DNA of 64,000 nt from positions 11,032,613-11,096,612 of the forward strand of contig NZ_CP108938.1 of NCBI RefSeq assembly GCF_036347135.1, in the 5' to 3' direction. Below the pieces are notes generated by a model. The model made no database searches and was not told the origin of the DNA. It saw only the letters and a program-made list of their open reading frames with translations. The translations under genes were made by a program, and so were the position numbers. Shown in pieces: positions 13,125-30,119 of the stretch (within the stretch, counting starts at the first letter, position 1; every line of letters starts with the position of its first letter). Origin of the DNA: Streptomyces sp. NBC_00775 (GTDB lineage Bacteria > Actinomycetota > Actinomycetes > Streptomycetales > Streptomycetaceae).

Positions 13125-13441
13125 GTGAACGCTCCTTTCGTCGAAGTGCGTGCGAAGTACCAGTCGGTGATGCGCCGGTCGGTGTAGGTGCCGCCGCGGT
13201 CGGCACCCGCCCACACCAGGTGCACGACCGCCTTGTCCGGGCTGCCGTCTTCGCGGGCGATGGCGGCCTGGATACGGAAGCGGGCGGCGGCGAAGGCTGG
13301 CGCGATCGCCTGGTCCGGGTTGCCGAAGAGCGCCGGCCACTTGGCGCGGCCGATCCCGGTGGCGTCCGCGCGCAGCAGGTCACGGCCGGTGCGGCTTCTC
13401 ATTTTGGTGTCACCAGTGGTTCTCATCTGGATGTCGTGCAT
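13100..13441 (-). CDS. Small plasmid-type hypothetical protein upstream of the coupling ATPase
   Basis: The frame encodes up to 113 residues and overlaps the start of the VirD4-like gene by 25 bases. The conserved-looking part runs from RTGRDLLRADATG through AVVHLVWAGADRGGTYTD to DWYFARTSTKG. Internal ATGs at 13426 and 13402 are alternative starts; none has a strong ribosome binding site, so the start is uncertain. Being the first gene of the conjugation operon and carrying charged alpha/beta sequence, it may be an accessory protein. No family recognised. Confidence 0.55.
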   Translation of the reverse strand: MHDIQMRTTGDTKMRSRTGRDLLRADATGIGRAKWPALFGNPDQAIAPAFAAARFRIQAAIAREDGSPDKAVVHLVWAGADRGGTYTDRRITDWYFARTSTKGAFTWTPQPRT

Positions 13442-13504
13442 CTCTACTGGTCAGAGCGCAGAAGTGGTGACATCAAGTGAGGAGTCTTGGTGACATCGTG
13501 TGAG
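13404..13504. promoter_or_regulatory. Direct-repeat and dyad cluster upstream of the conjugation operon
   Basis: Two 17-base direct repeats, TGGTGACATCAAGTGAG at 13465 and TGGTGACATCGTGTGAG at 13488, are spaced 23 bp apart. A related dyad TGGTGTCACCA lies at about 13405, inside the start region of the small gene. The copies sit where the leftward operon promoter should be. They could be operators for a transfer regulator or iteron-like sites; no regulator gene is adjacent. Confidence 0.4.
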
Positions 13505-13792
13505 AATCCCCAGCGCACTGAAATGAGAAGGCCGTAGGAGTGGCTATCTGACCTGCTATTTTGTGCTTTGACCTTGCTAGGTGAGAGCCGTGCGTGATGG
13601 CTGAGAAGCCTGATCCCCAAGGACCGCCGCTGGGGGCGAATGAACCCGAGCGCTGTGACCGGGCATTACAGGTTGCTGTGTCCGTCCGCCGGCTGATCAG
13701 CCATCACCGTCCCGCTGAGGGCCGGGACGAGCTCACGGGCCGGGACCGAGTGAGAGTACGCAAGCACAGTGCTCCGACGGTTTGTCCGTAGT

Positions 13793-14126
13793 GACAGACC
13801 CCCACCTGTGTGGGGAAGACGACGCCGCGAAGGCAGAGCTCTCCATCGACCCGGAGAGACCCCCACGCGTGTGGGGAAGACGAGCTGCGACTTCAGCCCC
13901 ATCACGTCGATGTCGACAGACCCCCACGCGTGTGGGGAAGACGTCTTCCCTCTGGGGCAGGGGGTGTTGAGCCGGGGACAGACCCCCACGCGTGTGGGGA
14001 AGCCCAGCCGGGCGGCGTCGACCAGGACGTCACCATGGACAGACCCCCACGCGTGTGGGGAAGACTCCTCCTATTCCGGCTGCAGGCCGGCCACGCCGGA
14101 CAGACCCCCACGCGTGTGGGGAAGAC
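13793..14126 (-). CRISPR. Type I-E CRISPR array 1 (6 repeats, 5 spacers)
   Basis: Six copies of a 28-base repeat lie at a 61-62 bp period, giving spacers of about 33 bases, standard for type I-E. The core is CCCCCACGCGTGTGGGG, a near-perfect dyad able to form the Cas6e hairpin. The leftmost copy has CACCTGTGTG instead of CACGCGTGTG, so the left end is the old, degenerate end. An AT-richer leader lies on the right, so transcription is inferred to run leftwards, with the repeat read as GTCTTCCCC... in the transcript. Confidence 0.95.
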
Positions 14127-14190
14127 CCTTGCTCACCTGTGGTTTTGGAGACCGGTAGGGCATTTTTTGGTCACTTTACATGACTTGGCC
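14127..14190 (-). promoter_or_regulatory. Leader of CRISPR array 1
   Basis: The sequence to the right of the last repeat contains CACCTGTGGTTTTGGAGACC, then a T-run, then ACTTTA. The same order and spacing recur beside arrays 2 and 3, so the block is a homologous leader. On the transcribed strand TAAAGT could serve as a -10-like element. No coding potential is seen from here to the STAND gene stop at 14296. Confidence 0.65.
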
Positions 14191-14295
14191 GTGCTGGTGA
14201 GAGCCGCTGCCTGGCGGCGGTTGCCTTTGGTGGTTCGGCCTGAACTGCCCGATCGGTAGGTGGATTTGGGATCGCCACTAGCGCGGTAGTTGCGC

Positions 14296-17200: not shown

Positions 17201-17997
17201 CCATCGACGAGATCCGCGCGCTCAACCTCAGGAAGGGGCGGCATCTGTCCGTAGACGATCCCGAGCTCGTGCCGGCCGACAGCTGAGGTCAGTTCCTCGT
17301 CGCTGACCAGCACCGACCGGCGAAACTCCCGCACGTCCCAGTGCGCCAGGTCAGGGTCGGCCGCCCGGCGCATGACCTCGGCCACCAAGTGGCCCAGCAC
17401 CAGCCCCCCGGCCCTGTGCGACAACCCCTGCCCGGCATGCTCCCGTTCGGTGCGCAGCGCATTGTGGAGATCCTCACGCAACTGCCCGTCGCTGCGGCCA
17501 TCGAACTCGATCCCCGCACGCCCCAGACGTTCCCAGTGCTCCTCGGACAAAGCCTGACAGATACCCCACGCGGTCGGCGCCCGAACCAGAAGCTCCCGCA
17601 AGTCCGCTTTGAGCAGAGGAACATCACCGCCATGACGGCGCAACACCTCAGCCAGCCGCAGACATCCTTCGTCCGGCGCAGCCGAGGTGATCAACCGGTA
17701 CTGCTCGGCCTCGAAACCGGTGACCAGATGCACCAGCACCGTCACCGCCTCTCGCGCCCTCACAGTCCGCCCCGCTCCGGCGCTCTTCACCTGTACCGCC
17801 ATCAACGAGCGGCCAGCGGCGTCGGCCAGATCGAAATCGACCGAATCCACATGCTGGAGCGACACCGCGTTCCCAGGCCCCTCGATACGGCACCCAGCTG
17901 CTTCGCCGTTCCGCACACTGGCCAGCAGCGCTTCCACCGTGCGCAGATACTGGTACTGGAATCCGCGAGCAGCAACCCGCCCACCGTCGAACGCCAC
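14296..17997 (-). CDS. STAND protein: Cap4/DUF4297-like nuclease, NB-ARC ATPase and TPR-like repeats
   Basis: This 1,233-residue protein has an N-terminal domain (about 1-210) resembling Cap4/DUF4297 PD-(D/E)xK nucleases: GFQYQYLRTVEALL, an EGPG glutamate, DSVDFDLADA and MAVQVKSAG, giving the D...QxK signature. An NB-ARC/STAND ATPase (about 275-560) follows: Walker A ITGLSGLGKSSL, Walker B WLMVFDDAS, sensor RIIVTTLGG and the GLPLA-like ECWPLAIEVACGYL. From about 600 to 1,050 helical repeats (ALVGHIRSTHTADGYTALL, AHALLELELEWLARAGD) look like TPR. The C-terminal 150 residues are a mixed alpha/beta domain. The architecture matches Avs-like and CD-NTase-linked antiviral STAND sensors whose repeats detect a trigger and release the nuclease. 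It lies between I-E arrays 1 and 2, whose leaders point towards its flanks, which suggests it travels with the CRISPR locus. Confidence 0.8.
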   Translation of the reverse strand: MAFDGGRVAARGFQYQYLRTVEALLASVRNGEAAGCRIEGPGNAVSLQHVDSVDFDLADAAGRSLMAVQVKSAGAGRTVRAREAVTVLVHLVTGFEAEQYRLITSAAPDEGCLRLAEVLRRHGGDVPLLKADLRELLVRAPTAWGICQALSEEHWERLGRAGIEFDGRSDGQLREDLHNALRTEREHAGQGLSHRAGGLVLGHLVAEVMRRAADPDLAHWDVREFRRSVLVSDEELTSAVGRHELGIVYGQMPPLPEVERADLVDGIGEILSSGGDGAVGIRTCVITGLSGLGKSSLAAAHIADQAFRYDAVFWVDAESEEALVASFARVLAHLTGSEEPAEVRDPRLVRERVHAELQSLPGPWLMVFDDASAPVARAWIPRSGRGRIIVTTLGGHWHGVQGRIDLSPMSSEEALRLVQLRLDLSEGQVEQYASSLSGLAQVLECWPLAIEVACGYLVTCGIGLDRLPAYTNTLIHRAADDERLVPAGYPRTLAAAVALSTERLISSARSRGLLQPTLATVAALCWLAPRRAPVHLALASTFVGPTDLPPAPGWVVFDEAQVPVREVIRELTDVSLVRYDEPLPARKEAFPGSEDTVSMNAVLQDILARHLGLSQSDVAAGLAHVACHTDRWLRGALLSGQAERTWELAQHATALVGHIRSTHTADGYTALLMGNLAAFHHAHGQYDAAHALLELELEWLARAGDPDEGMAAQTHTLLAHLTQLRKQADAGHRISAHLLPVLSYLRRLDGPPPEPVAHLAAEASRILQRHLRDEPDPALAQLLEDFRVLADALPPTESTQATKDLLAIQDLLGHSKGERAEHAAATALTRSTDPWSRATADLKRLLIEALVLQDKWEQADAALSDFLPYAGPRTLYGFALHHLVHNVGCHCAWTWVTQGEQRAVELLGRLLKETSIAENPALETATDEARFILLQVVHDSWRAMNGSSQDEGFLEQMSRLNDKTFTEPYDPDNVWERIYSGLMPRLAAVMGETVHRHYQEEGDAILATDLPSLERDPTVKDAYEAARCHAVLSLSTDPVYGSLAGRSTIDLLLPEARKFLPGPKALAILQPHKMVGATSPNTGKSIELQVHRACDKGLRRLAGPQPTLISPQHLTLMLTGQQLTLEHDDGTVIARATVQASSQWRQAARSRHSAVVYFGYGFALHDSPTHRRLMASPAELGRHINSASDNGLLAAGLVSVHLQLAPSVQHRPPATARQQPRRSTRAQRKKPHR

Positions 17998-18123
17998 GCA
18001 AACCCCCTGCGCTGAAGCCGACTTGTCGCCGTAAGACTAGGCACGGGGTCTGACAACGGGTGTCCACACAGCAGGATCTGCGACGGCTTTCGGCCTCAGG
18101 TCGCTGCAGGCTCACGCGCTATG

Positions 18124-18579
18124 GATAGGCCCCCAACTGTGCGGGGAACACGCGGTGGGCTGGATTGGGTGGGCCCAGTTCACCGATAGACCCCCACGCG
18201 TATGGGGAAGACGGCGTGAGGGTCAGCCGGTAGGGACCGGCGTACGAAAAACCCCCACGCGTGTGGGGAAGACTAACGACAACTCCCGATTCGTCGACGA
18301 GGCCACGGAAAGACCCCCACATCTGTGGGGAGAGCAACTCGCGCAGGCAGGTGTTGACGGCCAGGGTCGACAGACCCCCCACGCGTGTGGGGAGCCCTCG
18401 CTGCGGCCACACGGACGGAGGGGTCTGGTGGAAAGACCCCCACGCGTGTGGGGAACCCCAGTTACCCGCCCTCACGCCGTAGATGGCCGGGGAAAGACCC
18501 CCACGCGTGTGGGGAACCCAGATCGTGCCGGCCGTTGAGCCGGGCGGCCTCGAAAAGACCCCCACGCGTGTGGGGAACC
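18124..18579 (-). CRISPR. Type I-E CRISPR array 2 (8 repeats, 7 spacers)
   Basis: Eight copies of the I-E repeat occur at 61-62 bp spacing. The leftmost copy (CCCCCAACTGTGCGGGG) and the fourth (CCCCCACATCTGTGGGG) carry substitutions. Repeats change along the array: copies 2-3 end GGGGAAGAC, while the three leader-proximal copies end GGGGAAC. The leader is on the right, so the array is transcribed leftwards. It lies just upstream of the STAND gene start. Confidence 0.95.
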
Positions 18580-18650
18580 CCCTCATTCACCTGCGAGTTT
18601 GAAGATCAGCCAGCCGATTTTTGCCTACTTTAGCCGAGTTGGCGGGACGA
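18580..18650 (-). promoter_or_regulatory. Leader of CRISPR array 2
   Basis: The block contains CACCTGCGAGTTTGAAGATC, then GATTTTTGCC and ACTTTA, the same succession as beside array 1. The TAAAGT on the minus strand is a plausible -10 element. It ends where array 3 begins, 80 bases further right. Confidence 0.65.
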
Positions 18651-18660
18651 CAAGTCCCTG

Positions 18661-18809
18661 GACTGTCTCCCACGTGCGTGGGGAGAACCTGAAGAGCGTG
18701 CTGCTGGCCTGGGCCTTCGTGGACAGACCCCCACTGGCGTAGGGAAGGCCGCGCATCGCTCAGCTCGCCGCCCTGCTGTACGGCTGACCCCCACGCGTGT
18801 GGGGAGCGC
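18661..18809 (-). CRISPR. Type I-E CRISPR mini-array 3 (3 repeats, 2 spacers)
   Basis: Three repeats at 60-61 bp spacing match the I-E core imperfectly: CTCCCACGTGCGTGGGG, CCCCCACTGGCGTAGGG and CCCCCACGCGTGTGGGG. The copy next to the right-hand leader is the best preserved. It is the array closest to cas3, about 400 bp upstream of it. Confidence 0.85.
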
Positions 18810-19225
18810 CCTCGCCCGCCTGCAGGTTCAAAGATCTACGGGACGAGTTGCTCGCTTTACCCGGGCCGATGATACCGGGGTAGCGCGCCTGTGAAAGTGC
18901 TTTGCCCCGAGCGGTTGCAGTGCGAGAACGAGGTTTCGGTCGAAAGTCTTGTGGCGTTCGCCTATGAGTTCGCATGCCATGCCGCCGCGCGCGGGCCTCC
19001 TATGGGGCAACCGCTCGTACGTGGGGAACGGTGGGCACATGCACGATGGCGTCATGACCAGCAGTAATAGATCCTCACGGAGTGGGGACGTCTCGCCCCG
19101 GAGAGACTCCGGCACCGTGGTCGAAGAGCCCGCCCGGGCGGCCGGTGGCCGGGGTGGTGATCACAACAGGGCAGGATGTCTTAACGCAACGGTTCTAGGC
19201 GGTAGTTGGAGTGCGGAGGGTGATT
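18810..19225. promoter_or_regulatory. Array 3 leader and cas3 upstream region
   Basis: The first 60 bases hold a third leader copy (GCCTGCAGGTTCAAAGATC, then CTTTAC). The remaining 350 bases carry no convincing gene: a 104-residue plus frame is Gly/Arg-rich and has no ribosome binding site. The cas3 promoter should lie here; no clear -35/-10 pair stands out. Confidence 0.45.
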
Positions 19226-22108
19226 GTGGGGGTACGGGAGGACGCCCGGTTCGGTGGGATTGACCTGACGCCGTGGGGCAAGTTCGACCGGGGTCTGCTG
19301 GCGGTGTATCCGCTGTTGTTTCACCTGCTGGATACCGCGGCGATCGCTGGTGAGGTGTGGGACCGGTTCTTGACGTGCGGGCAGCGGCAGTTGATTTCCG
19401 CAGGGCTTGGGGTGGCGGTGGCGGAGGCCCGCTGCCTGGTGATGTTCATCGCTGGCCTGCATGATCTGGGCAAGCTCTCTGCTTTCCAGGAGCAAGAGGA
19501 GCATCCGTGGGCGCGGGTGAGCGAGGCGCTGCGCGCGGACACTGCTGGCTGGCGGCGCATGCGGCATGAGCGGGCTTCCATGCACGGTGTGCTGCAGCTC
19601 CTGGCGGAGGCCGGTTACCCGGTCGGCACCTCGGACAGCCCTGGGGTGCGGGTGGCGCAGATGCTGGGCGGCCATCACGGCCGGTTCCTTCAGCTCGACC
19701 TCGACGGTGCGGCCCAGGCGGCGCGGGTCAATGGCGCGTTGGGCGGCCCGCTCTGGCAGGACCTGCGGCGCCGCTACTTTTTCCTCCTGCGGCACCTGAC
19801 CGGTGCCACCGCGGTGCCCGCCAGGGTCTCGGTACCGGCCGCGGTACTGATCACCGGTGTCGGAGTTGTCGCGGACCGGCTGGCCAGCCAGCGCCACTAC
19901 TGGCTGCCCAAGGCGCAGGCGCCCGCCTTCGGTGCCGGCGAGCACTACGCCCAGGCCGTCAAGGATGCCGCGGCCGTGCTCGACCAGTCGGGTCTGGCCC
20001 GCATCACCCTGCCCGACACCTCGTTCGCCCAGGCCCACCGCGGTGTCGCGCAACCGAACGACCTGCAGGCCTCCCTGATTCGGCAGCTCACCGCCGTCGT
20101 GGGGGAGAAGGGGCCGGGCATCGTGGTGGTCACCGATGCCACCGGTGGCGGCAAGACCATCACCGCTCTGGAAGCCGCCCGTATCTTCAACGCCGGGGGC
20201 GATACGGCTGGCATCGTCTGGCTGCTGCCGACGACCGCCACCACGGACGCCGCCTACGACGTGCTTGAGGCGTATGTGGCCGCGCACCGCCCCGAGCATG
20301 CCCCGGTCTCCCTGGTGCACAGCTACGACTATCTCAACACCGCCTACACCGACCACCGCCTCGCCGCCCACGAGCCGTCCACCACCGACGAGTTCTGGCC
20401 CGACGATCTCGGCGGTGGAGAAGGCGACGGGGAGGGGACGGCGCAGCGGCCCGAGAAGCGGGTGACCGTGCCGGACGGCTGGCTGCGCGGCTGGGACCGC
20501 GCGCTGCTGGCCCAGTTCACCGTCGCCACCGTCGACCAGGCCCTCATGGCCGCGCTCCCAGTCCGCTTCAGCATGCTGCGCCAGCTGGCTTTGTCCGGGC
20601 GGACCGTCATCGTGGACGAGGTGCACGCCCTGACCCCGTTCATGCAGCAGATGCTGGGCCGCCTGCTGAACTGGCTGGGGGCACTGGGCTGCCCCGTCGT
20701 CCTGCTGTCCGCCACCCTCCCGGCCCGCACCAGCAACGAGCTGGTGCGCAGCTACCTCGCCGGAGCAGGCCACTCCCGCACCGTGCTCGCAGACCGGGAC
20801 TGGACGCCCGCCTACCCGGGCTGGCTGTTCGCCGCGGCCGCCGACGCCTCACTCACCCGCATCGACCCGCAGGCGGCCGACGAGCATGCCCGGCGCTTTC
20901 GCCGCACTGCTGAGATCCGTCTCTACCCGGTACGCCACGACACGCAGACCGACCCCGGCAATGCGCCCGCCCGCGAGAGCCGACTCGAGCGCATCACCGC
21001 CGAGATCGCGCCCGTCGTTGAGAACGGCGGCTGCGCCGTCGTGGTGTGCGCGACCGTGGCCGACGGACAGCGCACCTACCAGCACCTCCACGACATGCTG
21101 GACTGGCAGGGCGGACCTAACGACCAGCTGGTGCTGCTGCACGCCCGCCTGCCCGGCCACCAGCGAGAGACCCTTACCCGCCATATCCGCAGCCGCCTCG
21201 GACGCACCGGCGAACGCCCCGCCCGCCTCGTCGTCGTGACCACCAGCCTTCTCGACATGAGTCTCGACGTCGACGTCGACGTCATGGTCAGCGACCTCGC
21301 CCCCCTGCACACCCTCCTGCAACGCCTGGGCCGCCTCTGGCGCTTCGAGCACCTGTGGGGCCCCGCGTCCAGCCGCAGACCCGCCTGGCTGCGCCGGCGC
21401 ACGCACGCCCGGCTGATCGTCCTGCAGCCCACCGGCCATGAGGGCGACACGCTCCTCCCGGCCGCCTGGCGCACCCTGGACCCTCCCTTCCTGCCCCACG
21501 CCACCGCCGCCTACCTGGCCCGCCAGCCCGAGGGCACCCTCACGCTCAACCTGCCCGACGACGTCCACCACCTGGTCGAAACCGTGCATGGCGACGCCGA
21601 AGACCTCGCCCGCACCGCACCCGCCCTCGAACACCGCTACCGCGCCTATCAGACCCGACGCCGCGTCGAGGAACACCGCAGCGCCCTGCACCTCATCCCC
21701 ACCCAACGACACACGCTCGCGCTGGCCGACCTGCACCGACAGCGCCTTAACGCCCGCGACGCCGCCACCCGCCTGGGCATCATGCCCCGCCGCCTCCTGC
21801 CCCTCTACCGCACCCCGGCCGGCCGCTTCGCCCTCGATGCGGACGGCGCCCAGCTGCTCTCCCTGGACCGGGAGCCGACCCTCGCGCAGATCCGCACCAT
21901 CCTGCGGCACACCCTGCCCGTTCCCGCCGCCTGGGTCGCCGACCTGCGCCGCGAACATCACGCCCCCACGGCCTGGCAGAAGCACGCCCTGCTCGCAGAC
22001 CTGGTGCTGCTGCCGCACACCGCCGCCCACCCCCACGAGGCCGTGCGCTTCGGCCGCCACACTCTGCGCCTCGACCCCGTGCTGGGACTGGTTCACGGCA
22101 GGGAATGA
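19226..22108 (+). CDS. cas3: Cas3 helicase-nuclease, type I-E
   Basis: The product is about 960 residues. HD nuclease motifs lie near residues 75-150 (GLHDLGKLSAF, ERASMHGVLQ, MLGGHHGRF). The superfamily-2 helicase follows: Walker A near 305 (TDATGGGKTITALEAA), DEVH box near 463 (VIVDEVHALTPF), LLSATLP, motif V (TTSLLDMSLDVDVDVM) and motif VI (LLQRLGRLWRF). All catalytic signatures are intact, so this Cas3 should still degrade DNA, unlike the cas3-less CRISPR-transposon systems. GTG at 19226 is preferred because GGAGG lies six bases upstream; GTG at 19211 is in frame. A 495-bp gap separates it from cas8e, so it probably has its own transcript. Confidence 0.95.
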   Translation: MGVREDARFGGIDLTPWGKFDRGLLAVYPLLFHLLDTAAIAGEVWDRFLTCGQRQLISAGLGVAVAEARCLVMFIAGLHDLGKLSAFQEQEEHPWARVSEALRADTAGWRRMRHERASMHGVLQLLAEAGYPVGTSDSPGVRVAQMLGGHHGRFLQLDLDGAAQAARVNGALGGPLWQDLRRRYFFLLRHLTGATAVPARVSVPAAVLITGVGVVADRLASQRHYWLPKAQAPAFGAGEHYAQAVKDAAAVLDQSGLARITLPDTSFAQAHRGVAQPNDLQASLIRQLTAVVGEKGPGIVVVTDATGGGKTITALEAARIFNAGGDTAGIVWLLPTTATTDAAYDVLEAYVAAHRPEHAPVSLVHSYDYLNTAYTDHRLAAHEPSTTDEFWPDDLGGGEGDGEGTAQRPEKRVTVPDGWLRGWDRALLAQFTVATVDQALMAALPVRFSMLRQLALSGRTVIVDEVHALTPFMQQMLGRLLNWLGALGCPVVLLSATLPARTSNELVRSYLAGAGHSRTVLADRDWTPAYPGWLFAAAADASLTRIDPQAADEHARRFRRTAEIRLYPVRHDTQTDPGNAPARESRLERITAEIAPVVENGGCAVVVCATVADGQRTYQHLHDMLDWQGGPNDQLVLLHARLPGHQRETLTRHIRSRLGRTGERPARLVVVTTSLLDMSLDVDVDVMVSDLAPLHTLLQRLGRLWRFEHLWGPASSRRPAWLRRRTHARLIVLQPTGHEGDTLLPAAWRTLDPPFLPHATAAYLARQPEGTLTLNLPDDVHHLVETVHGDAEDLARTAPALEHRYRAYQTRRRVEEHRSALHLIPTQRHTLALADLHRQRLNARDAATRLGIMPRRLLPLYRTPAGRFALDADGAQLLSLDREPTLAQIRTILRHTLPVPAAWVADLRREHHAPTAWQKHALLADLVLLPHTAAHPHEAVRFGRHTLRLDPVLGLVHGRE

Positions 22109-22603
22109 ATGCCTCGTCGCCGGCCGTGCGAATGTGTCGTCTCTGCCAGACAGCTGACCTGGACGTCCCACCCCGTCCGCCCCGTTCTGCGAAAGCACGT
22201 GCGGTCAAGTGCGCACGGAGCCAGGCAAGTTGCGCTCTTGAGCCGGTGATGACGACTCAAAAGAGGTGGACCCGCCGGTAATTAAAAGGTGAACGGTGTG
22301 GTTCGGAGAACTGTCGGCGCTGGCTAATATGGAAATGTGGCAACGGGGCGCACGTTTGAACCCGTCGTCACGCATTCCCTCCTGCGCTGCCGCGTTGGTA
22401 AGCACCGCACCCCCTGGTGCTCTACCGGCGGCAACTCCGGTCTCCTGGGCGCGACTTGACCGTCGCCTGCATCCTTACCGGACCGGCGGCCTTCTGCTGC
22501 TGCCTGGTTGCCGTCACACGACGGACCAGCCCCAGTACTGACAGGGAAACCCTCTCCCTCACCGTTCCCGCCATTTCTTCTGCCCGGCATTTGGAGCGCC
22601 TCT
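22109..22603. promoter_or_regulatory. cas3-cas8e intergenic region
   Basis: These 495 bases have no supported gene. They should contain the promoter of the cas8e-to-transposase operon. Two features stand out: an isolated degenerate type I-B repeat at 22229-22256, and a hairpin-prone stretch at about 22395-22427 (GGTAAGCACC pairing with GGTGCTCTACC). Confidence 0.4.
22229..22256 (-). repeat. Solitary type I-B-like CRISPR repeat inside the I-E cas locus
   Basis: The sequence begins GTTGCG and ends TGATGACGAC, identical to both ends of the repeats in the I-B arrays 24-32 kb away and at nearly the same length (28 versus 29). The middle differs (CTCTTGAGCCGG instead of AACCCTTCTGGGC). No second repeat lies within 80 bp, so it is not an array. 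It could be a relic, or a crRNA-like regulatory RNA read on the minus strand. Confidence 0.45.
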
Positions 22604-24157
22604 GTGCCTGCGCCGTTATACCCAACGGACAAAGAGCCCTGTATTCCCGCCCTGTTCCTCGACGGGCACCAGGAATACCTGGGATGGCGCGAGCTGCTGC
22701 TGCGCGCCCACGAAATCGAGGATCTGGCACTGCCCCTGCCACCGGCAGCCTCCGCGGTGCTGCGCCTGCTGATCGCGATCGTGGCCCGCACGACGGGGCT
22801 GGACGATCCGGAGATGGGCGTGGGGGAGTGGGCCGCCCGCCGCCGCGCGCTGCTGAAGGAACCCGACGGCTTCGACGCCGACGCGATCCACGGCTACTTC
22901 GAGAAGCACACCTGGGACCTGTTCGATCCCGCACGGCCCTTCCTGCAAGACCCCAGGCTGGCCGTGCAGTGCAAAGACCGGGCCGGAGTCAACAAACTGG
23001 TCTTCGGCCGCCCAGAGGGCAACAACCTGGCCTGGCTGAGCCCACACACCGACACCGACCCGCAGCCCGTCCCCAGCGCACAGGCACTGTGGCACCTGCT
23101 CATCCACCACTACTACGGCGCTTCCGGCACATGCTCCGTGCGCGCCATCGGAGACCGGCGCCTCGGCAACGCAACGGCCGGCCCCTTACGCTCCACCCTC
23201 TCCTTCCACCCCCTGGGCCGCACCCTGTACGAAACGCTCCTCGCGGGCCTGCCCAAACCCGCCGACCACTGGCCCGACGCAACAGACCGGTGCCCGTGGG
23301 AAGAACCCGAACTGCCGGACCCACTGGCACCGCCGCCCGCAGTGACCTGGCCGGGCCGGCTGCTGACCGGCCGCTCCTGCCACGCCCTCCTCCTGATCCC
23401 CTCCGCAGACGGCCGACAGGTCACCGACGCCTACGTGACCTGGGCGACCGAGACCAAACTCCTCGCCACAGACCCGTTCCTCATCCACCACCTCGACACG
23501 AACAAACCCGTCAATGAACGCCACAAGCCCCGCCGCGCGGACGCCGACCGCGCCCTGTGGCGCGACCTGGACGCCCTCCTGCTCGCCGGCGACGAAACCT
23601 CCACCGTCCAACGCCCCGACGCCTTCACCACTCTCAACGACCTGCCCCCCGACCTGCGCGCCCGCCTCCGTGTCCGCGTCCACGGCTTTGACCAGGAAGG
23701 CCGGACCAACAACCGCACCTGGTACACGGCCCTGACCCCGCCGATCTGGCCCTGGACACAGGAACACGACCCGGACACCGCGGAGAGGATCGCCGAATGC
23801 CGGATCGCGGCCGAAGACATCGGCACACGCCTGGACGAGGTCTCCCGCCAGGCCTGGCGCACCGTCACCACACCCTCCACCGCAACCCACCGCAGCTCCA
23901 GACCCCCCAAACGGCTGCCTGCATGGACGAAGCAAGCCCGCGCCGCGTACTGGCCCCGCGCCGAGACCGTCTTCTGGCGCCTGCTCGAGCACCCCGACCA
24001 CAACGCACGGGCAGCGTTCGCCGCCGAGGCCGTCGCCGTGCTGCAAGACGTCACCCGCCCGGCGATCACCCAGCACTTCCTCACCGCCCGCGCGGTCGCC
24101 GCAGCGGTAACCGAACTGCGCCGCCCGCCGCACCCCACCCCCCGCCGCACCTCCTGA
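22604..24157 (+). CDS. cas8e: Cas8e (Cse1), large subunit of type I-E Cascade
   Basis: The product is 517 residues, the usual Cse1 length. GTG at 22604 is chosen because GGAG lies seven bases upstream and because family-like sequence (FLDGHQEYLGWRELLLRAHEI) starts soon after. Typical Cse1 segments include PAASAVLRLLIAIVARTTGL near residue 45, FDPARPFLQDPRL near 110, a conserved NKLVFGRPEGNNLAWL, and ALWHLLIHHYYGASGTC near 165. The C-terminal third is helical (four-helix-bundle region). It recognises the PAM and recruits Cas3. It heads a compact operon with cas11, cas7, cas5 and cas6e. Confidence 0.92.
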   Translation: MPAPLYPTDKEPCIPALFLDGHQEYLGWRELLLRAHEIEDLALPLPPAASAVLRLLIAIVARTTGLDDPEMGVGEWAARRRALLKEPDGFDADAIHGYFEKHTWDLFDPARPFLQDPRLAVQCKDRAGVNKLVFGRPEGNNLAWLSPHTDTDPQPVPSAQALWHLLIHHYYGASGTCSVRAIGDRRLGNATAGPLRSTLSFHPLGRTLYETLLAGLPKPADHWPDATDRCPWEEPELPDPLAPPPAVTWPGRLLTGRSCHALLLIPSADGRQVTDAYVTWATETKLLATDPFLIHHLDTNKPVNERHKPRRADADRALWRDLDALLLAGDETSTVQRPDAFTTLNDLPPDLRARLRVRVHGFDQEGRTNNRTWYTALTPPIWPWTQEHDPDTAERIAECRIAAEDIGTRLDEVSRQAWRTVTTPSTATHRSSRPPKRLPAWTKQARAAYWPRAETVFWRLLEHPDHNARAAFAAEAVAVLQDVTRPAITQHFLTARAVAAAVTELRRPPHPTPRRTS

Positions 24158-24213
24158 CACCCCCTGCCGGCCACCGCCTTCACCAGACGCCCTCCGCACC
24201 GAGGAACTCCCCT

Positions 24214-24924
24214 TTGCCCACGCTCACCACCGCGCAACGCCGCGCCCACTACGACGACTTCGTCGCCGAGGTCATCGAGCTGTGCTCCCTCAACGGCGTC
24301 CGAGCCGACCTCGCCTCCGGCCGGGGACGCCCCGTCGAAGAATGCGAGCGGATGCAGAAATACCTCTCCGCCCGGACCGCCCGCTTCGGTGCCCGCCGCG
24401 CGCACTACACCGTCGCCAGCCTCATCGCCATGCAGCGCCACCTCGCCCACGAAGACGGCCCCTACACCCCGGAGTCCGCTCACCCCGCCCCCGACGGCCC
24501 AGCCGACGATCCGCTTCTGCCGGACATCGAGAACGCCTCCCAGCGGCAGGAACCGCTCCGGGCGCCCGCCCCGGGCGCCACGGCGGCAGACGATCCCGCA
24601 CCAGGGCAGAAGACACCCGGACCGCACTGGCGGGCCCGCCCGAATCTCGGTACCACTCTGGCCCTCGCCGTGGGCCGCCACGGCTTCAAACAACCCCGCA
24701 TGGACGACCGCGTCAAAACCCTCACCCGGCTGTCCACCCCGCTGCTGCACCCCCGGCTGTGGACCCTGGCCGCCCACCTGAGCAGCCGTCATGCCGCCCG
24801 CCTCGACTTCGCCGTCCTGCTGGAAGACCTGGCCTGGTGGGACGACGACCGGTTGCACACCGCCGCCCGCTGGCGCGATTCCTACTTCCAGACCCTCGAC
24901 CGCCTCGCGTCCCAGGAAGACTGA
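24214..24924 (+). CDS. cas11e: Cas11e (Cse2), small subunit of Cascade
   Basis: The product is 236 residues with a TTG start behind GAGGAA. Helical segments include HYDDFVAEVIELCSLNGV, RARPNLGTTLALAVGRHGF and DDRVKTLTRLSTPLLHPRLW; the last is the characteristic Cse2 region. A Pro/Ala-rich insert of about 50 residues (roughly 90-140) makes it longer than E. coli Cse2. It binds along the crRNA-target belly of the complex. It sits between cas8e and cas7e, which is the standard I-E order. Confidence 0.88.
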   Translation: MPTLTTAQRRAHYDDFVAEVIELCSLNGVRADLASGRGRPVEECERMQKYLSARTARFGARRAHYTVASLIAMQRHLAHEDGPYTPESAHPAPDGPADDPLLPDIENASQRQEPLRAPAPGATAADDPAPGQKTPGPHWRARPNLGTTLALAVGRHGFKQPRMDDRVKTLTRLSTPLLHPRLWTLAAHLSSRHAARLDFAVLLEDLAWWDDDRLHTAARWRDSYFQTLDRLASQED

Positions 24925-24925
24925 C

Positions 24926-26128
24926 ATGACCCCCTACGCACCCGCCCGCTACATCGACCTGCACGCCCTGCACCCGGTACCCGCCTCGCTGCTCAACCGA
25001 GGGGAGGACGACGAGCCCAAGACACTGCTGCTGGGCGGCGCCGTCAGAGGGATGGTCTCCTCGCAGGCCTGGAAGCGGGCCATCCGCCTCATGCTGGAGG
25101 AGGAACTCGACGAACACGCCGCCCGCACCCGCATGCTTCCCCTGCGCGTGGCCGACGCCCTGAGCGAGACCGGCTGGCCGGCGGAGCTGGCCGCCTTCGC
25201 CGGCGCCCAGATCGCCCGCTCAGCCAGCAGAGAGGGCCTGAAGACCGAAGAAAACCAAGGCGGCATCACCTCCGCCCTCCTCTACCTGCCGCGCGACACC
25301 CTCTCCGACATGGTCGACCTGTGCCAGGAACACCGACCGCAGCTGGAAGAGGCCCGCACCCAAGCGGTCGCCGCTGCCGCCGAGTCCAAGGGCGGCCGCA
25401 AAAAGCCCAAGGACAGCACCGTGCCCGCCGTCCTGCCCACCCGCACGGTCGCATCCCTCATCAAGCGACGGACGGCCACCATCAACCTGTTCGGCCGCAT
25501 GCTCGCCGAGCTCCCCGGCGCCCACGTGGACGGCGCCGTGCAGATGGCCCACGCCTTCACCGTCCATCAAAGCGACCCGCAGCCCGACTACTTCACCGCC
25601 GTCGAGGACTGGGCCGCCCCGCACGACACCGGCAGCGCGCACCTGCAGACCGGCTTCTTCACCACTGGCATCCTCTACCGCTACGCCACCGTCAACCTCA
25701 CCGAACTCACCCGCAATCTGGACGGCGACGACGACCAGGCCCTGTGCCTACTGGCCCTGTTCACCGAGGCGTTCATCGAAGCCCTGCCCCAGGCGAAGAA
25801 GACCTCCACCGCCCCGCACACCCTGCCCCACCTGGTCCACTACGCCATCCGCGACCGCCGCCCGGTCTCCTACGCCGCCGCCTTCGAACAGCCCGTCAAA
25901 CACGCTCGCGGCGGCGGCCACACCCAGCCCGCCGTCCACGCACTGTCCCAGCACGCCGACGCCCTCAACCGGCTACTGGGCGACCGCCGCCGCATCACCC
26001 ATGGCTACGCCACCCTGCAAGACACCCCCGTCGACCACATCGGTACCGCCCACACCTCCTTCCAGGACCTGACCGACGCCCTCACCAAAGCCGCCGCCCA
26101 GCCGTCCCCCTCACGGTCGGCCGCATGA
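24926..26128 (+). CDS. cas7e: Cas7e (Cse4/CasC), Cascade backbone
   Basis: The product is 400 residues. The start YIDLHALHPVPASLLNRGEDD with KTLLLGGAVRGMVSSQAWKR is the hallmark N-terminus of Cas7e, and FGRMLAELPGAHVDGAVQMAHAFTVHQ is the typical central segment. DYFTAVEDW, DTGSAHLQTGFFTTGILYRYATVNL and the C-terminal region match the family. Six copies should line the crRNA. It starts two bases after the cas11 stop and overlaps cas5e (ATGA). Confidence 0.95.
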   Translation: MTPYAPARYIDLHALHPVPASLLNRGEDDEPKTLLLGGAVRGMVSSQAWKRAIRLMLEEELDEHAARTRMLPLRVADALSETGWPAELAAFAGAQIARSASREGLKTEENQGGITSALLYLPRDTLSDMVDLCQEHRPQLEEARTQAVAAAAESKGGRKKPKDSTVPAVLPTRTVASLIKRRTATINLFGRMLAELPGAHVDGAVQMAHAFTVHQSDPQPDYFTAVEDWAAPHDTGSAHLQTGFFTTGILYRYATVNLTELTRNLDGDDDQALCLLALFTEAFIEALPQAKKTSTAPHTLPHLVHYAIRDRRPVSYAAAFEQPVKHARGGGHTQPAVHALSQHADALNRLLGDRRRITHGYATLQDTPVDHIGTAHTSFQDLTDALTKAAAQPSPSRSAA

Positions 26129-26916
26129 ACGGCATCCTGCTGCGCCTGGCCGCCCCGCTCATGGCCTTCGGAGAACACGCCGCCTTCCGCTACCGCGACA
26201 CCGTCGCCTTCCCCACCCGCTCCGCCCTCATCGGCCTGTTCGCCGCCGCCGACGGCCGCCCTCGCGAACAGGCCCTGACACCCGACCCGGCCACCGGGAC
26301 TGTCCCCTACGCCGACCTGCGCTTCACCGTCCGCATCGACCGACCCGGCCACCGCCACACCGATTACCACACCGCCGGCGGAGGCCGCCCCCACAAACAG
26401 GGCCTGTCTACCAGCAGCGGCAACTACCGCAGCCAGAAGGCATCCACCTTCATCAGCCACCGCGTCTACCTGGCCGACGCCGTCTTCACCGTCGCCGTCC
26501 AAGGACCCGACCCGCTCCTGGAAAAGATCACCAGCCGCCTGGAGCAGCCCGCCTTCGCCCCCTACCTGGGGCGCCGCGCCTGTGCCCCCGACGAACCCCT
26601 CGTCCTGCGCGGCCCGCATCCCGACCCCGTCCACGAACTCCTGACCCGGGCCCCGCTCAGCCTTCCCGCCCCACCCCGCCCCGAACAGGACACCGTGCCG
26701 GCCGACTTCGTCTGGGAGCACCCGCCTGTGCACACCCCTGCCGCCAACGTGCACCGCGAACTCGCCGACGTACCCGTCGACTTCACCCCCACCCGGCGCT
26801 TCCACCACACCCGCCGGGTCTGGCGCACCACCGAACAGCTGCCCGCCACCCTGTACGCCGCCCAGCCCACGATCAACGCCCTGGCCGCCTACATCCAGCA
26901 GGACACCCCCCGATGA
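26125..26916 (+). CDS. cas5e: Cas5e (CasD)
   Basis: The product is 263 residues. The family N-terminus is clear: LLRLAAPLMAFGEHAAFRYRDTVAFPTRSALIGLFAAA. Central RQHLSTSS-like and QKASTFISHRVYLADAVFTVAV segments and the RRACAPDEPLVLRG stretch match Cas5e, which caps the crRNA 5' handle. Short overlaps tie it to cas7e and cas6e. Confidence 0.93.
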   Translation: MNGILLRLAAPLMAFGEHAAFRYRDTVAFPTRSALIGLFAAADGRPREQALTPDPATGTVPYADLRFTVRIDRPGHRHTDYHTAGGGRPHKQGLSTSSGNYRSQKASTFISHRVYLADAVFTVAVQGPDPLLEKITSRLEQPAFAPYLGRRACAPDEPLVLRGPHPDPVHELLTRAPLSLPAPPRPEQDTVPADFVWEHPPVHTPAANVHRELADVPVDFTPTRRFHHTRRVWRTTEQLPATLYAAQPTINALAAYIQQDTPR

Positions 26917-27623
26917 GCCTTCAGACCGAACCCGACACCAGCACAACAACCCTGATCCGCATCCACCTCAACCTCCGCAACCCCGACGTCCGCCGCGACC
27001 TGGCCCACCCGGGCAGCCTGCACAAGACGATCATGCTGCTGGCCCCCGAAGGACTGGGCGAACACCCCCGCCAGCAGGCCGGACTGCTCTTCCGCCTCGA
27101 ACACGCCACCCGCCACACCCCGCCCACCCTGCTCGTCCAGTCCCAGCTGCCGCCCGACCTCACCCGCCTGCCCGCCACCTACGGCAGCGCCGAAACCCGT
27201 GACCTCACCCCCATGCTGACGGCCCTCACCCCCGGCCGACGCGTGCGCTACCGCATCACCGCCAACGCCAGCGCCCGCCGCCAATGCACCGACAGCGACC
27301 CCTTCTTCGACACCGAGACCAAACCCCGCCACACAGACGTACCCCTGCACGGCGACGACGCCCTCACCTGGTGGAAGCGCAAAGCCACCCACGCAGGACT
27401 CGCCCTGCACAGCACCGCCCTCACCCCTGTACGCCGATCCCGCCACCCCGTCACCAGACAGCACGGCGGCGACAAGCAACCAGACGTCTTCCGGCACGCA
27501 CTGACCCGCTTCGACGGCCTCGCCACCATCACCGACCCCGACCAACTGCGCCACGCCGTACTCACCGGCATCGGCCGCGGCAAGCCCTACGGCGCCGGCC
27601 TGCTCTCCCTCGCCCCCGCCTGA
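26913..27623 (+). CDS. cas6e: Cas6e (CasE), crRNA endoribonuclease
   Basis: The product is 236 residues. Features of Cas6e: IRIHLNLRNPDVRRDLAHPGSLHKTIM at the N-terminus with the conserved His, RQQAGLLFRLEHA, and the Gly-rich C-terminal loop TGIGRGKPYGAGLLSLAPA. It would cut the hairpin repeats of arrays 1-3 and stay bound to the 3' stem. It is the last canonical cas gene. The next gene, a transposase, starts 40 bases downstream with its own ribosome binding site. Confidence 0.93.
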   Translation: MSLQTEPDTSTTTLIRIHLNLRNPDVRRDLAHPGSLHKTIMLLAPEGLGEHPRQQAGLLFRLEHATRHTPPTLLVQSQLPPDLTRLPATYGSAETRDLTPMLTALTPGRRVRYRITANASARRQCTDSDPFFDTETKPRHTDVPLHGDDALTWWKRKATHAGLALHSTALTPVRRSRHPVTRQHGGDKQPDVFRHALTRFDGLATITDPDQLRHAVLTGIGRGKPYGAGLLSLAPA

Positions 27624-27663
27624 CCCACCCCCACCCACCACCCCAAGGAAGATCCCGGACCCC

Positions 27664-29250
27664 GTGCCCGCCACGCCCTCACCCGACGGCCCCTACGACA
27701 CCACCTCCCTCCGCGCCGCCGCGGTCCGCCGCCTGCTGCGTCTGCGCGACACCGAACGCCTGACCCACCACGACGTACGCACCATCGCCGACGCCTTCAC
27801 CGTCCACTGGCGCACCGTGCGACGCTGGATGGACAACGCCGGCGCCCACAACGGCACCTACACCCCCCAAGGCCGTCGCCACTTCACCCTCACCCCGGCC
27901 ATGCACGAAGCCCTGGCCCAATGGCACGGCAACGTGGCGAGCGCCTACCTCGCACTCGTCGCCGACGGCCACCTCGGCACCCCGCCCCGGGCCTCCCAGG
28001 CCACCTTCTACCGCGCCGTCAACCGCGAACTCAGCGCCGGGCAGCGCGCCGCCCTCAAGAACGGCGAAGCAGGCCGCCGCCGACACGACGTCCACGCCCT
28101 ACGCCCGCACGGCAACCGCAACGACGTCTGGGAGACCGACCACGTCGAAGCCAGCGTCTTCGTCAACGTCGACGGACACCGCAGCAAACCGTGGATCACC
28201 TGGTTCATCGACCACGCCACCGCCGTCATCTGCGGCCTGGCCATCACCCCCCACCAGCCCAGCCAGGACGCCATCCTGGCCGCCGCCCGCGACGCCATCC
28301 TCTGCACCGATCACCACCGGCCCTTCGGCGGCATCCCCCGCAAGGTGAGAGTCGACCGCGGCCGTGACTTCCTGGGCAAGTGCGTAGCCGAGGCCTTCCA
28401 GAAGTTCGGCACCGAACTGATCGTCCTGCCGCCCTACAGCCCCCACCTCAAAGGCACCGTCGAAGCCATCAACGGCGCCGCCAAGCACATGCTGTTCAAG
28501 GGCCTGCCCGGCTACGCCCACACCCCCCGAAGCCGCCGCGACCGCCGCGGACAGCCCCTGTGGGCCCTTAACGAACTCCTCGACTACGAAACCTTCGTCA
28601 CCGTCGTCCTCGACTGGGTGGACTGGTGGAACAACGACCACACCATCGCCCGCCTCCACCGGCGCACCCCCGCCCAGGCCTGGCACGCCGACCTCACCCC
28701 CATCGACACCCTCGACCCCGGCGACCTGCACACCTACACCCTCAACGACGCCGGGCCACCCCTGAAAATCACCAGCAAGGGCGTCCGCTGGAACAGCGCC
28801 TACTACGTCGGCGAATGGATGCACGGCCACGGCAGCGCAGGCGAGATGGTCCGCCTGCGCCACGAACCCCACCACTACCACCGCGTCGAGCTCTACGACG
28901 CCGACACCCTCACCTACCGCGGCCCCGCCTTCCGCAGCGACGAGATGAGCCCCCGCCAAGCCCGCGCACTGCGCAACGCCCGCCAGCGCGAAGCCGACCG
29001 CTACGCCGCCAAAGCCCGCCGCGCCCGCAAGAACGCCAAACCCCGCTACGCCGCCACCAGCGTCGCCGCCACACCCGAGCCCCTCAACCGGCTCACCGCC
29101 AGCCAAGCAGCCGCACAGCTACGTCAGTTGCAGACACCGGAAGCAGACCTGCACATCGAGGCCCGGCCCGACCTCCTCAACCGGCCCACACCCTCCTCCA
29201 CCCGCTGGACCAAACCCCTGCCCGACCCCAAGCCCCAGGACACCGAGTGA
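27664..29250 (+). CDS. DDE transposase of the MuA/TnsB/TniA class, in the I-E cas operon
   Basis: The product is 528 residues. An N-terminal helix-turn-helix (RLTHHDVRTIADAFTVHWRTVRRWMD) precedes an RNase-H-fold integrase core with a visible triad: D159 (WETDHVE), D231 (VRVDRGRDFLG) and E267 (LKGTVEAINGAAK), a DD35E-type spacing. After LDWVDWWNNDHTIARLHRRTPAQAW comes a Mu-transposase C-terminal beta-barrel-like region (KGVRWNSAYYVGEWM), then a basic tail. It starts 40 bp after cas6e behind AAGGAAG, on the same strand and with the same C-rich codon use, and overlaps the ATPase gene (GTGA). This pairing is the TnsB-TnsC, TniA-TniB or MuA-MuB arrangement. No TnsA or TniQ is seen. A role in crRNA-guided transposition is a hypothesis only. 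Confidence 0.88.
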   Translation: MPATPSPDGPYDTTSLRAAAVRRLLRLRDTERLTHHDVRTIADAFTVHWRTVRRWMDNAGAHNGTYTPQGRRHFTLTPAMHEALAQWHGNVASAYLALVADGHLGTPPRASQATFYRAVNRELSAGQRAALKNGEAGRRRHDVHALRPHGNRNDVWETDHVEASVFVNVDGHRSKPWITWFIDHATAVICGLAITPHQPSQDAILAAARDAILCTDHHRPFGGIPRKVRVDRGRDFLGKCVAEAFQKFGTELIVLPPYSPHLKGTVEAINGAAKHMLFKGLPGYAHTPRSRRDRRGQPLWALNELLDYETFVTVVLDWVDWWNNDHTIARLHRRTPAQAWHADLTPIDTLDPGDLHTYTLNDAGPPLKITSKGVRWNSAYYVGEWMHGHGSAGEMVRLRHEPHHYHRVELYDADTLTYRGPAFRSDEMSPRQARALRNARQREADRYAAKARRARKNAKPRYAATSVAATPEPLNRLTASQAAAQLRQLQTPEADLHIEARPDLLNRPTPSSTRWTKPLPDPKPQDTE

Positions 29251-30119
29251 CCCACCCGACCACCACGCCCGAAGGCCAGTTGGCCACCGGCCCCAACTAC
29301 CACTACATGGGCCTGCCCGGCGCCCGCGCCATGCTGACCGACGCCAGCGCAGAGACCTACGCCAACCTCGTCACCACCCTCAACGCCGACGCAGGCAAGG
29401 GCGCCATCATGTGCATCCACGGCGGCGTCGGCCTGGGCAAGACCTTCGCCGTCAACAGCCACCTCGACGACCTCGCCCCCCACACCACGCTCCGCATCAA
29501 AGTCGGCTCCGCCAAAATCCAGGCCCTGCGCGCCGCCCTGTACAAAAAGCTCGACCTGCCCGGCGAGGCCCCCCTCAACAGCACCCGCTGCGAAGCCATG
29601 CTCAAAGAAGCACTGTCCGACACCTCACGCGTCCTGGTCGTCGACGAAGCACAGTGGCTGGACACCCGGACCTTCGAATTCATCCGCGAACTCTGGGACG
29701 ACGAGGACACCCGCCTCGCCGTCGTCCTGGTCGGAGCCGAAACCTGCTACCAGAAAATCAAGAACCGGCCGGCCCTTGACTCCCGCATCCTCATCTGGCA
29801 GCGCTACAAGCCCCTCACCCCCGCAGAAGTCCTCACCGTCATTCCCCAGTACCACCCGCTCTGGGCGGACGTACCCACCGACGAACTGCTGTGGATCGAC
29901 GACGCCGCCTGCCACGGCAACTTCCGCCAGTGGGCCAAAATCACCTACCTGCTCTGGGAAGAGCACGGCGGCCCCGACACGAAGGGGCACACCGCAGATC
30001 CGCCACACCAGCCCACGCCACACGACGCGGCCGCACCGTTCCCTGCCCCTGCCTACAGCCGGAACCTAGTGCGCGCCGTCCTCAGCCGCCTCGACCCCAC
30101 CCAACGCCACACTGACTGA
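29247..30119 (+). CDS. TnsC/TniB/MuB-like AAA+ transposition ATPase
   Basis: The product is 290 residues. The GTG start overlaps the transposase stop. The N-terminus (GLPGARAMLTDASAETYANLV) resembles the MuB/TniB lead-in. Walker A is IHGGVGLGKTFAVNSHL near residue 60, Walker B is VLVVDEAQWLD near 130, sensor 1 is AVVLVGAETCYQ, and an arginine-finger-like SRILIWQRYKPL follows. The C-terminal 80 residues (LWADVPTDELLWIDDAACHGNFRQWAKITYLL) form the helical lid. Such ATPases select and deliver target DNA to the transposase. It is the last gene of the apparent cas-transposition operon; a hairpin follows the stop. Confidence 0.85.
   Translation: MTHPTTTPEGQLATGPNYHYMGLPGARAMLTDASAETYANLVTTLNADAGKGAIMCIHGGVGLGKTFAVNSHLDDLAPHTTLRIKVGSAKIQALRAALYKKLDLPGEAPLNSTRCEAMLKEALSDTSRVLVVDEAQWLDTRTFEFIRELWDDEDTRLAVVLVGAETCYQKIKNRPALDSRILIWQRYKPLTPAEVLTVIPQYHPLWADVPTDELLWIDDAACHGNFRQWAKITYLLWEEHGGPDTKGHTADPPHQPTPHDAAAPFPAPAYSRNLVRAVLSRLDPTQRHTD

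Follow-up and report, generated by a model that had tools for sequence, protein, structure and literature searches.

Type I-E CRISPR-Cas (clustered regularly interspaced short palindromic repeats and CRISPR-associated proteins) operons with attached tnsB and tnsC genes and looser spacer lengths have already been published for Streptomycetaceae, together with the proposal that TnsB-TnsC serves as a substitute spacer-acquisition module (Faure et al., 2019, as relayed by PMC12231136 and PMC8730458). Here such a cas-tnsBC locus is analysed in a stretch of 64,000 nucleotides from Streptomyces sp. NBC_00775 (NZ_CP108938.1, positions 11,032,613 to 11,096,612; hereafter the window), in which the complete type I-E effector set of cas3, cas8e, cse2, cas7, cas5 and cas6e is followed by tnsB and tnsC. 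As the published variant is portrayed by the relaying papers, the window locus agrees with it in the genes from cas3 to cas6e, the lack of cas1 and cas2, the attached tnsB/tnsC and the presence of an array, and equally in the lack of transposon ends and the more variable spacer lengths, although 22 of 25 spacings are tight in arrays with uniform repeats. Added here are targets on plasmids and in sister tnsB/tnsC genes, guides common to different species, plasmid-borne copies of the system, the tight spacing in young arrays and an invariant DDE triad, some of which the original description may hold. While the gene arrangement is already known, what is new is what the arrays target, large plasmids and transposase genes related to the system's own; a prior report of guide targets of cas-tnsBC loci was not found in the open-licence literature, a scope that does not include the original of Faure et al.

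With CRISPR-associated transposons (CASTs) of types I-F3, I-B, V-K and I-D the locus shares Cascade, TnsB/TnsC homologues, the lack of cas1/cas2 and plasmid-aimed guides, but differs in that the genome has no TniQ, transposon ends were not found and the Cas3 motifs are intact. Plasmid-borne anti-plasmid CRISPR systems such as type IV, as summarised in PMC11656645, are alike in their plasmid copies and anti-plasmid guides, whereas the present system is of type I-E with Cas3, has a transposase pair in the operon and is chromosomal as well. With MuA-MuB of phage Mu and TnsB-TnsC pairs such as that of structure 7svw, finally, the present pair has in common that TnsB matches 7svw and TnsC matches MuB and ShTnsC, without known transposon ends or cargo in the present case.

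The reading that we consider probable is type I-E Cascade-Cas3 immunity with long-lived guides directed against rival Streptomyces plasmids and, across the family of loci, against the tnsB and tnsC genes of relatives. The arrays would be transcribed and the transcripts cut by Cas6e, Cascade would bind AAN-flanked protospacers on incoming plasmids and Cas3 would degrade the plasmids so bound; shared guides would mostly be inherited, slowly changed and reshuffled, and the system's own tnsC would be spared because of its ten mismatches to the guide. Of the possibilities raised in the initial annotation of the window, a CRISPR defence that senses or recruits a transposase comes closest to this reading; the unexpected part lies elsewhere, in guides that match plasmids and related transposase genes. 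The locus is a case of a transposase and a CRISPR system sharing an operon and a target family, and the published proposal, if true, would make it a second instance of a transposase turning into a module for CRISPR adaptation. As a defined enemy, a protospacer adjacent motif (PAM), intact catalytic residues and concrete protospacers are now known, both interference and the role of TnsB-TnsC are directly testable.

Guide targets on plasmids and in transposase genes

Three CRISPR arrays (A, B and C; Table 1), absent from the initial annotation, are located upstream of cas3 on the opposite strand, B and C being proximal to cas3. They display the type I-E hallmarks of 29-nt repeats, spacers of about 32 nt, a leader and an AAN PAM, as quoted also for S. 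avermitilis (PMC12231136). The stem of the repeat is retained, with 91.7% of cells paired in 94 distinct repeats versus at most 65% when the pairing is slid; only stem retention is claimed, as compensatory changes are few (5 cells).

The window arrays were compared by BLAST with 72,556 plasmid records (7.3 Gb), taking the best 25 of 44 records for one query and all 23 for the other. For at least seven of the nine spacers in arrays B and C, linear Streptomyces plasmids contain a match with 3-4 mismatches, all seven with AAN among the matches listed; one of the seven enters the count once a 33-nt spacer has been shortened by one base. The array B spacer directed at a tnsC Walker A region (Table 1) has its target on a 346-kb plasmid of strain Alt1; the other targets are a gene adjoining a DnaB-like helicase, the gene for a SpaA-related protein, a terminal stretch of 0.6 kb on an S. 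mirabilis plasmid without annotation, a pFRL3 gene, a gene two along from an ATP-binding protein and a gene within a Tad pilus cluster. Cascade leaves positions 6, 12, 18, 24 and 30 unpaired, and 11 of the 24 mismatches in these seven matches fall at such positions (p = 5e-4), a further 6 occupying other third positions. The AAG flank is present in the system's own tnsC too, which differs from the guide by ten mismatches, one of them in the seed. No convincing match outside the arrays was found, among the matches listed, for the array B/C stretch in the window genome and three related genomes, and the same stretch had no match in phages; a 21/22 match repeated in all four genomes, presumably in the gene for GroEL by its protein context, was rejected as a self-target as it stops inside the spacer. 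In a search of an ordinary array against the plasmids, which was not used as a control, repeat matches dominate. Large Streptomyces plasmids often carry ordinary type I-E arrays and cas6e genes; counting every organism, 84 plasmid records contain a long array match.

Beyond the window, 144 spacers of 28-36 nt from ten cas-tnsBC loci, including 6 spacers taken manually from mini-arrays and gaps once matches had been seen, were compared with 835 kb of target DNA in 68 regions, mostly around tnsB homologues and with the window included. Before the PAM count the repeat boundary in G160 was shifted by 2 nt, because nearly all G160 spacers began with identical two bases. Allowing up to 6 mismatches, 25 of the 144 spacers have a match, and for 21 of these the best hit is flanked by AAN (17 and 16, respectively, at up to 5 mismatches); among the null sets at up to 6 mismatches, reversed and complemented spacers gave no match and two shuffles 1 and 0, and none of the 144 spacers matched in a further 400 kb that was drawn from elsewhere in the chromosomes of seven genomes. 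Ordinary type I-E spacers, 415 from 20 arrays oriented by eye, yielded 4 matches in the identical target DNA, 2 with AAN, the background frequency of AA being 2.1%. The excess of AAN-flanked matches over this control, which shares the tnsBC bias of the target set, amounts to 21/144 versus 2/415 (Fisher p = 2e-11), to 16/138 without the hand-added spacers (p = 1e-8) and to 14/127 versus 2/415 when counted by spacer family (p = 7e-8). Per locus, again without hand-added spacers, matches number 5 in G160, 4 in G031, 3 each in G001 and G133, 2 each in G002 and G003 and 1 in the window. The arrays of two plasmids were held out until the method was fixed, their spacers being shortened by the first two bases, as had been done for G160. 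Matches were obtained for 5 of the 31 spacers, all 5 with AAN and the nulls at 0, with 5/21 from NZ_CP134205.1 and 0/10 from NZ_CP030074.1. Although 12 of the 31 are common to G160, 3 of the 5 matches are not (3/19 versus 2/415, p = 7e-4).

With respect to the targets, tnsB or tnsC is hit by 6 of 127 spacer families and by none of the 415 ordinary spacers (p = 1.5e-4). The targeted sites in tnsC are Walker A (GFGKTLAVNTCLRE), the stretch just before Walker B (RPRTFLVDEA) and residues around 137 and 177; in tnsB they are the second-D motif (PETIVVDRGKVF; VRVDRGKDFL) and the catalytic-E motif (KGIVERTFGSINALF). Other targets at up to 6 mismatches encode an HA-repeat helicase, which we take to be TtrA-like, an XRE protein of about 763 aa, presumably Tap-like, a DUF6083 protein, a type II secretion F protein and a metallophosphatase. 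Two further targets, encoding a replication-relaxation protein and a UvrD-like helicase, come in only at 7 mismatches, with AAN. Across the loci, mismatches at every sixth position are 32 of 92, compared with 14.4 expected.

Several observations weigh against this reading or narrow it. Transcription, cleavage and plasmid loss are inferred from the sequence. The window search was made without a shuffled null, the PAM serving as the check, and 12 listed matches were examined in sequence. Among these, none of the four for array A carries AAN, the best being spacer 5390 with 3 mismatches and AGC; array B spacer 813 has 4 mismatches and a CAC flank, spacer 5206 has 5-6 mismatches and no AAN, and one listed plasmid match (L205) contained no spacer match on inspection. 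In the tnsBC-region set 1 of 14 window spacers matched at up to 7 mismatches, and G037 (11 spacers), G203 (8) and cf386 (1) had no match at up to 6. As the target set was built around tnsBC, the share of these genes among the targets is over-seen. Other third positions hold 22 of the 92 mismatches, so that the signal at every sixth position is in part explained by codon wobble. Genomes free of Cas1 contain lineage-specific arrays whose repeats are uniform. The HD motif was not found by pattern in 2 of 10 Cas3 proteins compared, the distant L112 and L071, the former also without a Walker A pattern, which may reflect a weaker nuclease or a pattern miss, and dN/dS, the ratio of nonsynonymous to synonymous substitution rates, is 0.67-1.04 for tnsB and tnsC in distant, nearly saturated pairs.

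Guide inheritance and the source of spacers

Different species have spacers in common that are 76-100% identical and for the most part in register. Three protospacers are targeted from distant clades, with TnsB about 50% identical to that of the window group, by arrays with differing repeats: one in the DUF6083 gene from G031 and from L004, L006 and L010, one at the second-D motif of tnsB from NZ_CP134205.1 and from G001 and G003, and one in a secretion gene at window position 3716 from NZ_CP134205.1 and from G002. Judged by these patterns, shared guides look inherited, and some uniform lineage-specific arrays show past acquisition; since such arrays exist in genomes without Cas1, acquisition has not been off throughout. 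The difference between G160 and NZ_CP134205.1 was considered as a fresh acquisition at the leader end and rejected, reshuffling being likelier; of the two spacers present only in G160, one recurs as a near copy at another site of the NZ_CP134205.1 locus, and the adjacent repeats are, by eye, not copies of the first.

The leading single guess for the role of TnsB-TnsC, to be held tentatively, is that it constitutes the adaptation module and inserts new spacers in place of Cas1-Cas2. Neither Cas1 (PF01867, TIGR03638) nor a type I-E Cas2 is encoded anywhere in the genome of the window. Of 10 cas-tnsBC genomes, 9 have no Cas1, G001 having a separate ordinary type I-E cas1; as Cas1 is present in 28 of 101 genus genomes, this difference is not significant (p = 0.45). 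The Cas1-free genomes with lineage-specific arrays of near-identical repeats are in favour of such a module, as is the bias of guides to relatives' tnsB and tnsC, which capture near related transposon ends would predict. The spacing of the repeats points both ways. At 89/125 versus 490/596 the distances of 61 nt are rarer in cas-tnsBC than in ordinary type I-E arrays (p = 0.006), in line with the published variant (Faure et al., 2019, via PMC12231136), but the looser spacing tracks decayed repeats, because cas-tnsBC arrays with a repeat identity of at least 0.8 are tight (22/25 at 61 nt versus 67/100 in the remainder, p = 0.048); Cascade may, however, itself select 32-nt spacers. The leaders, by eye, share the pattern AAAGTG...AAA...CAGGTCA..AAG with those of ordinary type I-E arrays, which argues for ordinary acquisition unless a shared promoter accounts for the likeness. 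TnsB-type transposases make 5-bp target duplications, unlike the 29-bp repeat copy that spacer insertion needs. Remnants of cas2 point in the same direction: type I-E Cas2, whole or as a fragment, is found in 3 of 10 cas-tnsBC genomes, in G037 (L116 6063-6266) as a truncated gene 67 bp from an ordinary-type array near the cas-tnsBC locus and in G003 as a broken gene, which suggests that there had once been Cas1-Cas2 modules. The more specific version, in which TnsB-TnsC replaces Cas1-Cas2 by capturing spacers preferentially from related tnsBC-bearing plasmids and the CRISPR system is specialised against the catalytic motifs of its own transposase family, is unlikely in our estimation.

On the other hand, the system may provide ordinary type I-E immunity, its spacers stemming from Cas1-Cas2 that acts in trans or has since been lost and TnsB-TnsC having another job, or none, in CRISPR. 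The ordinary-type leaders, the mostly 32-nt spacers, the AAN PAM and the cas2 remnants of G037 and G003 all fit. So does the finding that type I-E systems are common on plasmids, Cas6e homologues being present on 104 plasmid records, 68 of them of Streptomyces, and type I-E systems on large Streptomyces plasmids are a possible source of Cas1-Cas2 in trans. The tnsB/tnsC guide bias (6/127 families versus 0/415 spacers) would, however, then be coincidence, and the single stable operon linkage with an invariant DDE triad speaks against the absence of any role; this explanation appears rather doubtful.

The transposase pair and its linkage to cas genes

The initial annotation had described cas8e-cas11-cas7-cas5-cas6e followed after 40 bp by a DDE transposase gene whose stop overlaps the gene of a P-loop ATPase, and both Pfam/NCBIfam and the coordinates bear this out. 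The stop of tnsB overlaps the GTG start of tnsC, and from the gene spacing tnsBC is predicted to be co-transcribed with the cas genes. Its claim of a complete Cas3 agrees with the presence of HDLGK, TGGGKT, DEVH and QRLGR, and the absence of TniQ, cas1 and cas2 that it noted extends from the locus to the whole genome. The triad D159, D231 and E267 that it assigned proved invariant in all 46 TnsB homologues compared, 15/15 cas-linked and 31/31 others, as did, in a 26-row alignment of TnsC, the Walker A residues G58 and G61-T65 and D132, E133 and Q135 of its DEAQ motif. TnsB matches the solved TnsB chain 7svw (E 1e-30), which we take to be from a type V-K system, and TnsC matches MuB 8xvb (2e-11) and ShTnsC 7m99 (1e-7). 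With dN/dS of 0.22-0.52 in close pairs for both tnsB and tnsC, the pair looks to be under purifying selection.

It is quite unlikely, though in keeping with relatives' tnsB and tnsC being guide targets and with the retained catalytic residues of TnsB-TnsC, that the pair interferes with rival transposases, acting on the proteins or on the DNA, and so forms a second line of attack on the elements targeted by the guides; a blocking protein would need no invariant catalytic triad.

A TniQ-free CAST, in which Cascade guides TnsB-TnsC to insert the element into guide-matched plasmids, has in its favour that the guides aim at large plasmids and that the operon is found on chromosomes and on two large plasmids. 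Type I-D CASTs can, moreover, work without TniQ, and one variant retains the nuclease, as stated in PMC11656645. TnsB and TnsC are the CAST components present; TniQ, a nuclease-deficient effector and transposon ends were not found, the latter in the window stretches and right flanks compared. The window genome is without TniQ, which occurs elsewhere in the genome in 3 of 10 cas-tnsBC genomes, and the Cas3 motifs are intact. No shared right end was found after tnsC, where the point at which homology ceases varies between species, and the 500 nt after tnsC form no inverted pair of at least 15/18 with window positions 12500-14330. Transposon end repeats, which the initial annotation had suggested looking for, were not recovered in the stretches compared; a 24-nt pair at 13191-13214/30397-30420 with 83% identity was rejected, since 44 pairs of this kind exist and it seems to be a chance match. 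Guided insertion by the window locus is unlikely, a new mode of CRISPR RNA-guided transposition, as initially envisaged, is left unsupported, and a TniQ-free CAST is overall a very unlikely explanation.

The linkage of cas and tnsBC genes is conserved. A scan for related loci gave 11, of which 8 have cas genes before tnsB and L007 begins at tnsB, at a contig end; in L011 and L012 (TnsB 46% and 43%) cas genes were not found in the 5-10 kb examined. Of 246 genomes sampled from the genus, 26 yielded a TnsB match at E <= 1e-100, and among the 16 of these whose context was examined, 2 of them with less than 1.5 kb of upstream sequence, 7 are cas-linked (G000, G133, G037, G031, G160, G139 and G203), that is, at least 7/246. 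Cas-linked TnsBs reach down to 47% tblastn identity to the window TnsB, and those examined at 46% or less are without cas; by a second identity measure the ranges touch, with G203 cas-linked at 45% and G135 cas-free at 46%. Identical eight-gene order is found on plasmids NZ_CP030074.1 (970 kb) and NZ_CP134205.1 (452 kb), where cas1 and cas2 are not listed within 16 kb of either operon in a gene table that is incomplete. Nearly all cas-tnsBC loci with enough sequence keep the gene order, the exceptions L003, L006 and L013 being partly decayed. In a TnsB tree of 46 sequences, from which the broken L013 was left out and in which the placement of the long branches L113 and L115 is unsure, all 15 cas-linked TnsBs fall on one side of a single branch (support 100/100, 100% of bootstrap trees). 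Cumulatively, the same gene order sought in other genomes places the close relatives of the transposase behind cas genes rather than away from them, and the conserved coupling of an intact type I-E system with TnsB-TnsC put forward initially is upheld by the single clade. A chance insertion of the transposase pair behind cas6e, the simple insertion of the initial annotation, is next to negligible even though related cas-free tnsB-tnsC pairs are common in the genus. In its simple form it is refuted by the conserved gene order, which almost every cas-tnsBC locus of the single TnsB clade shares and which persists at TnsB identities as low as about 47-50%.

Features of the locus and its relatives

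The features of the locus are compiled in Table 1.

Table 1. Coordinates of the cas-tnsBC locus and its CRISPR arrays, in window positions
Feature	Position	Strand	Basis and remarks
CRISPR array A	13792..14126	-	6 repeats (consensus GTCTTCCCCACACGCGTGGGGGTCTGTCC), 5 spacers; repeats nearly uniform
Leader of array A	14127..14190	-	By eye; like leaders of ordinary Streptomyces type I-E arrays
CRISPR array B	18123..18580	-	8 repeats, 7 spacers; the one at 18336-18368 matches the Walker A region of a plasmid tnsC
CRISPR array C	18660..18809	-	3 diverged repeats, 2 spacers, both common to other species
cas3	19211..22108	+	Pfam/NCBIfam; HD, Walker A, DEVH and QRLGR motifs intact
cas8e (cse1)	22508..24157	+	Pfam/NCBIfam
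cse2 (cas11)	24300..24924	+	Pfam/NCBIfam; within open reading frame 23797-24924 (residues 169-364); start approximate
cas7	24791..26128	+	Pfam/NCBIfam; extent of open reading frame, real start probably further in
cas5e	26134..26916	+	Pfam/NCBIfam; within open reading frame 25321-26916 (residues 272-500); start approximate
cas6e	26913..27623	+	Pfam/NCBIfam
tnsB	27664..29250	+	DDE transposase; D159, D231, E267
tnsC	29247..30119	+	AAA+ ATPase of MuB/TnsC type; GTG start

The window forms the right end of an 11.1 Mb contig; tnsB and the arrays occur again in mirror orientation at the left contig end, as far as 50.2 kb from either end, which suggests a terminal inverted repeat of at least 50 kb with a second copy of the cas-tnsBC system. 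Between arrays A and B, a 1233-aa NTPase is encoded at 14296-17997 on the minus strand, with a partial match to the FxSxx-COOH TPR protein below the curated cut-off; it was rejected as a component of the system, a homologue not being found in the related loci.

Decay is seen in several relatives: L006 has no cas6e match, L009 a frame break in cas3 and L013 a broken tnsB, and upstream cas genes were not found in L003. At the left end of G133 (L111 2273-3849) tnsB is split in two frames while the right-end copy, L110, is whole, by decay or assembly error. The cas-free sister units L079, L080, L081, L012, L072 and L073 contain two tnsC-like genes each, L073 with a second tnsB-like piece in addition. 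The gene after tnsC on the S. cadmiisoli plasmid carries a DprA annotation (L211 19549-20649). Downstream of tnsC, L004 and L010 (12724-12813 in both) and L006 (6081-6170) carry a one-spacer mini-array, whose spacer matches the region of a DUF6083 gene in sister loci, the L004 copy agreeing with L003 at 31 of 32 positions.

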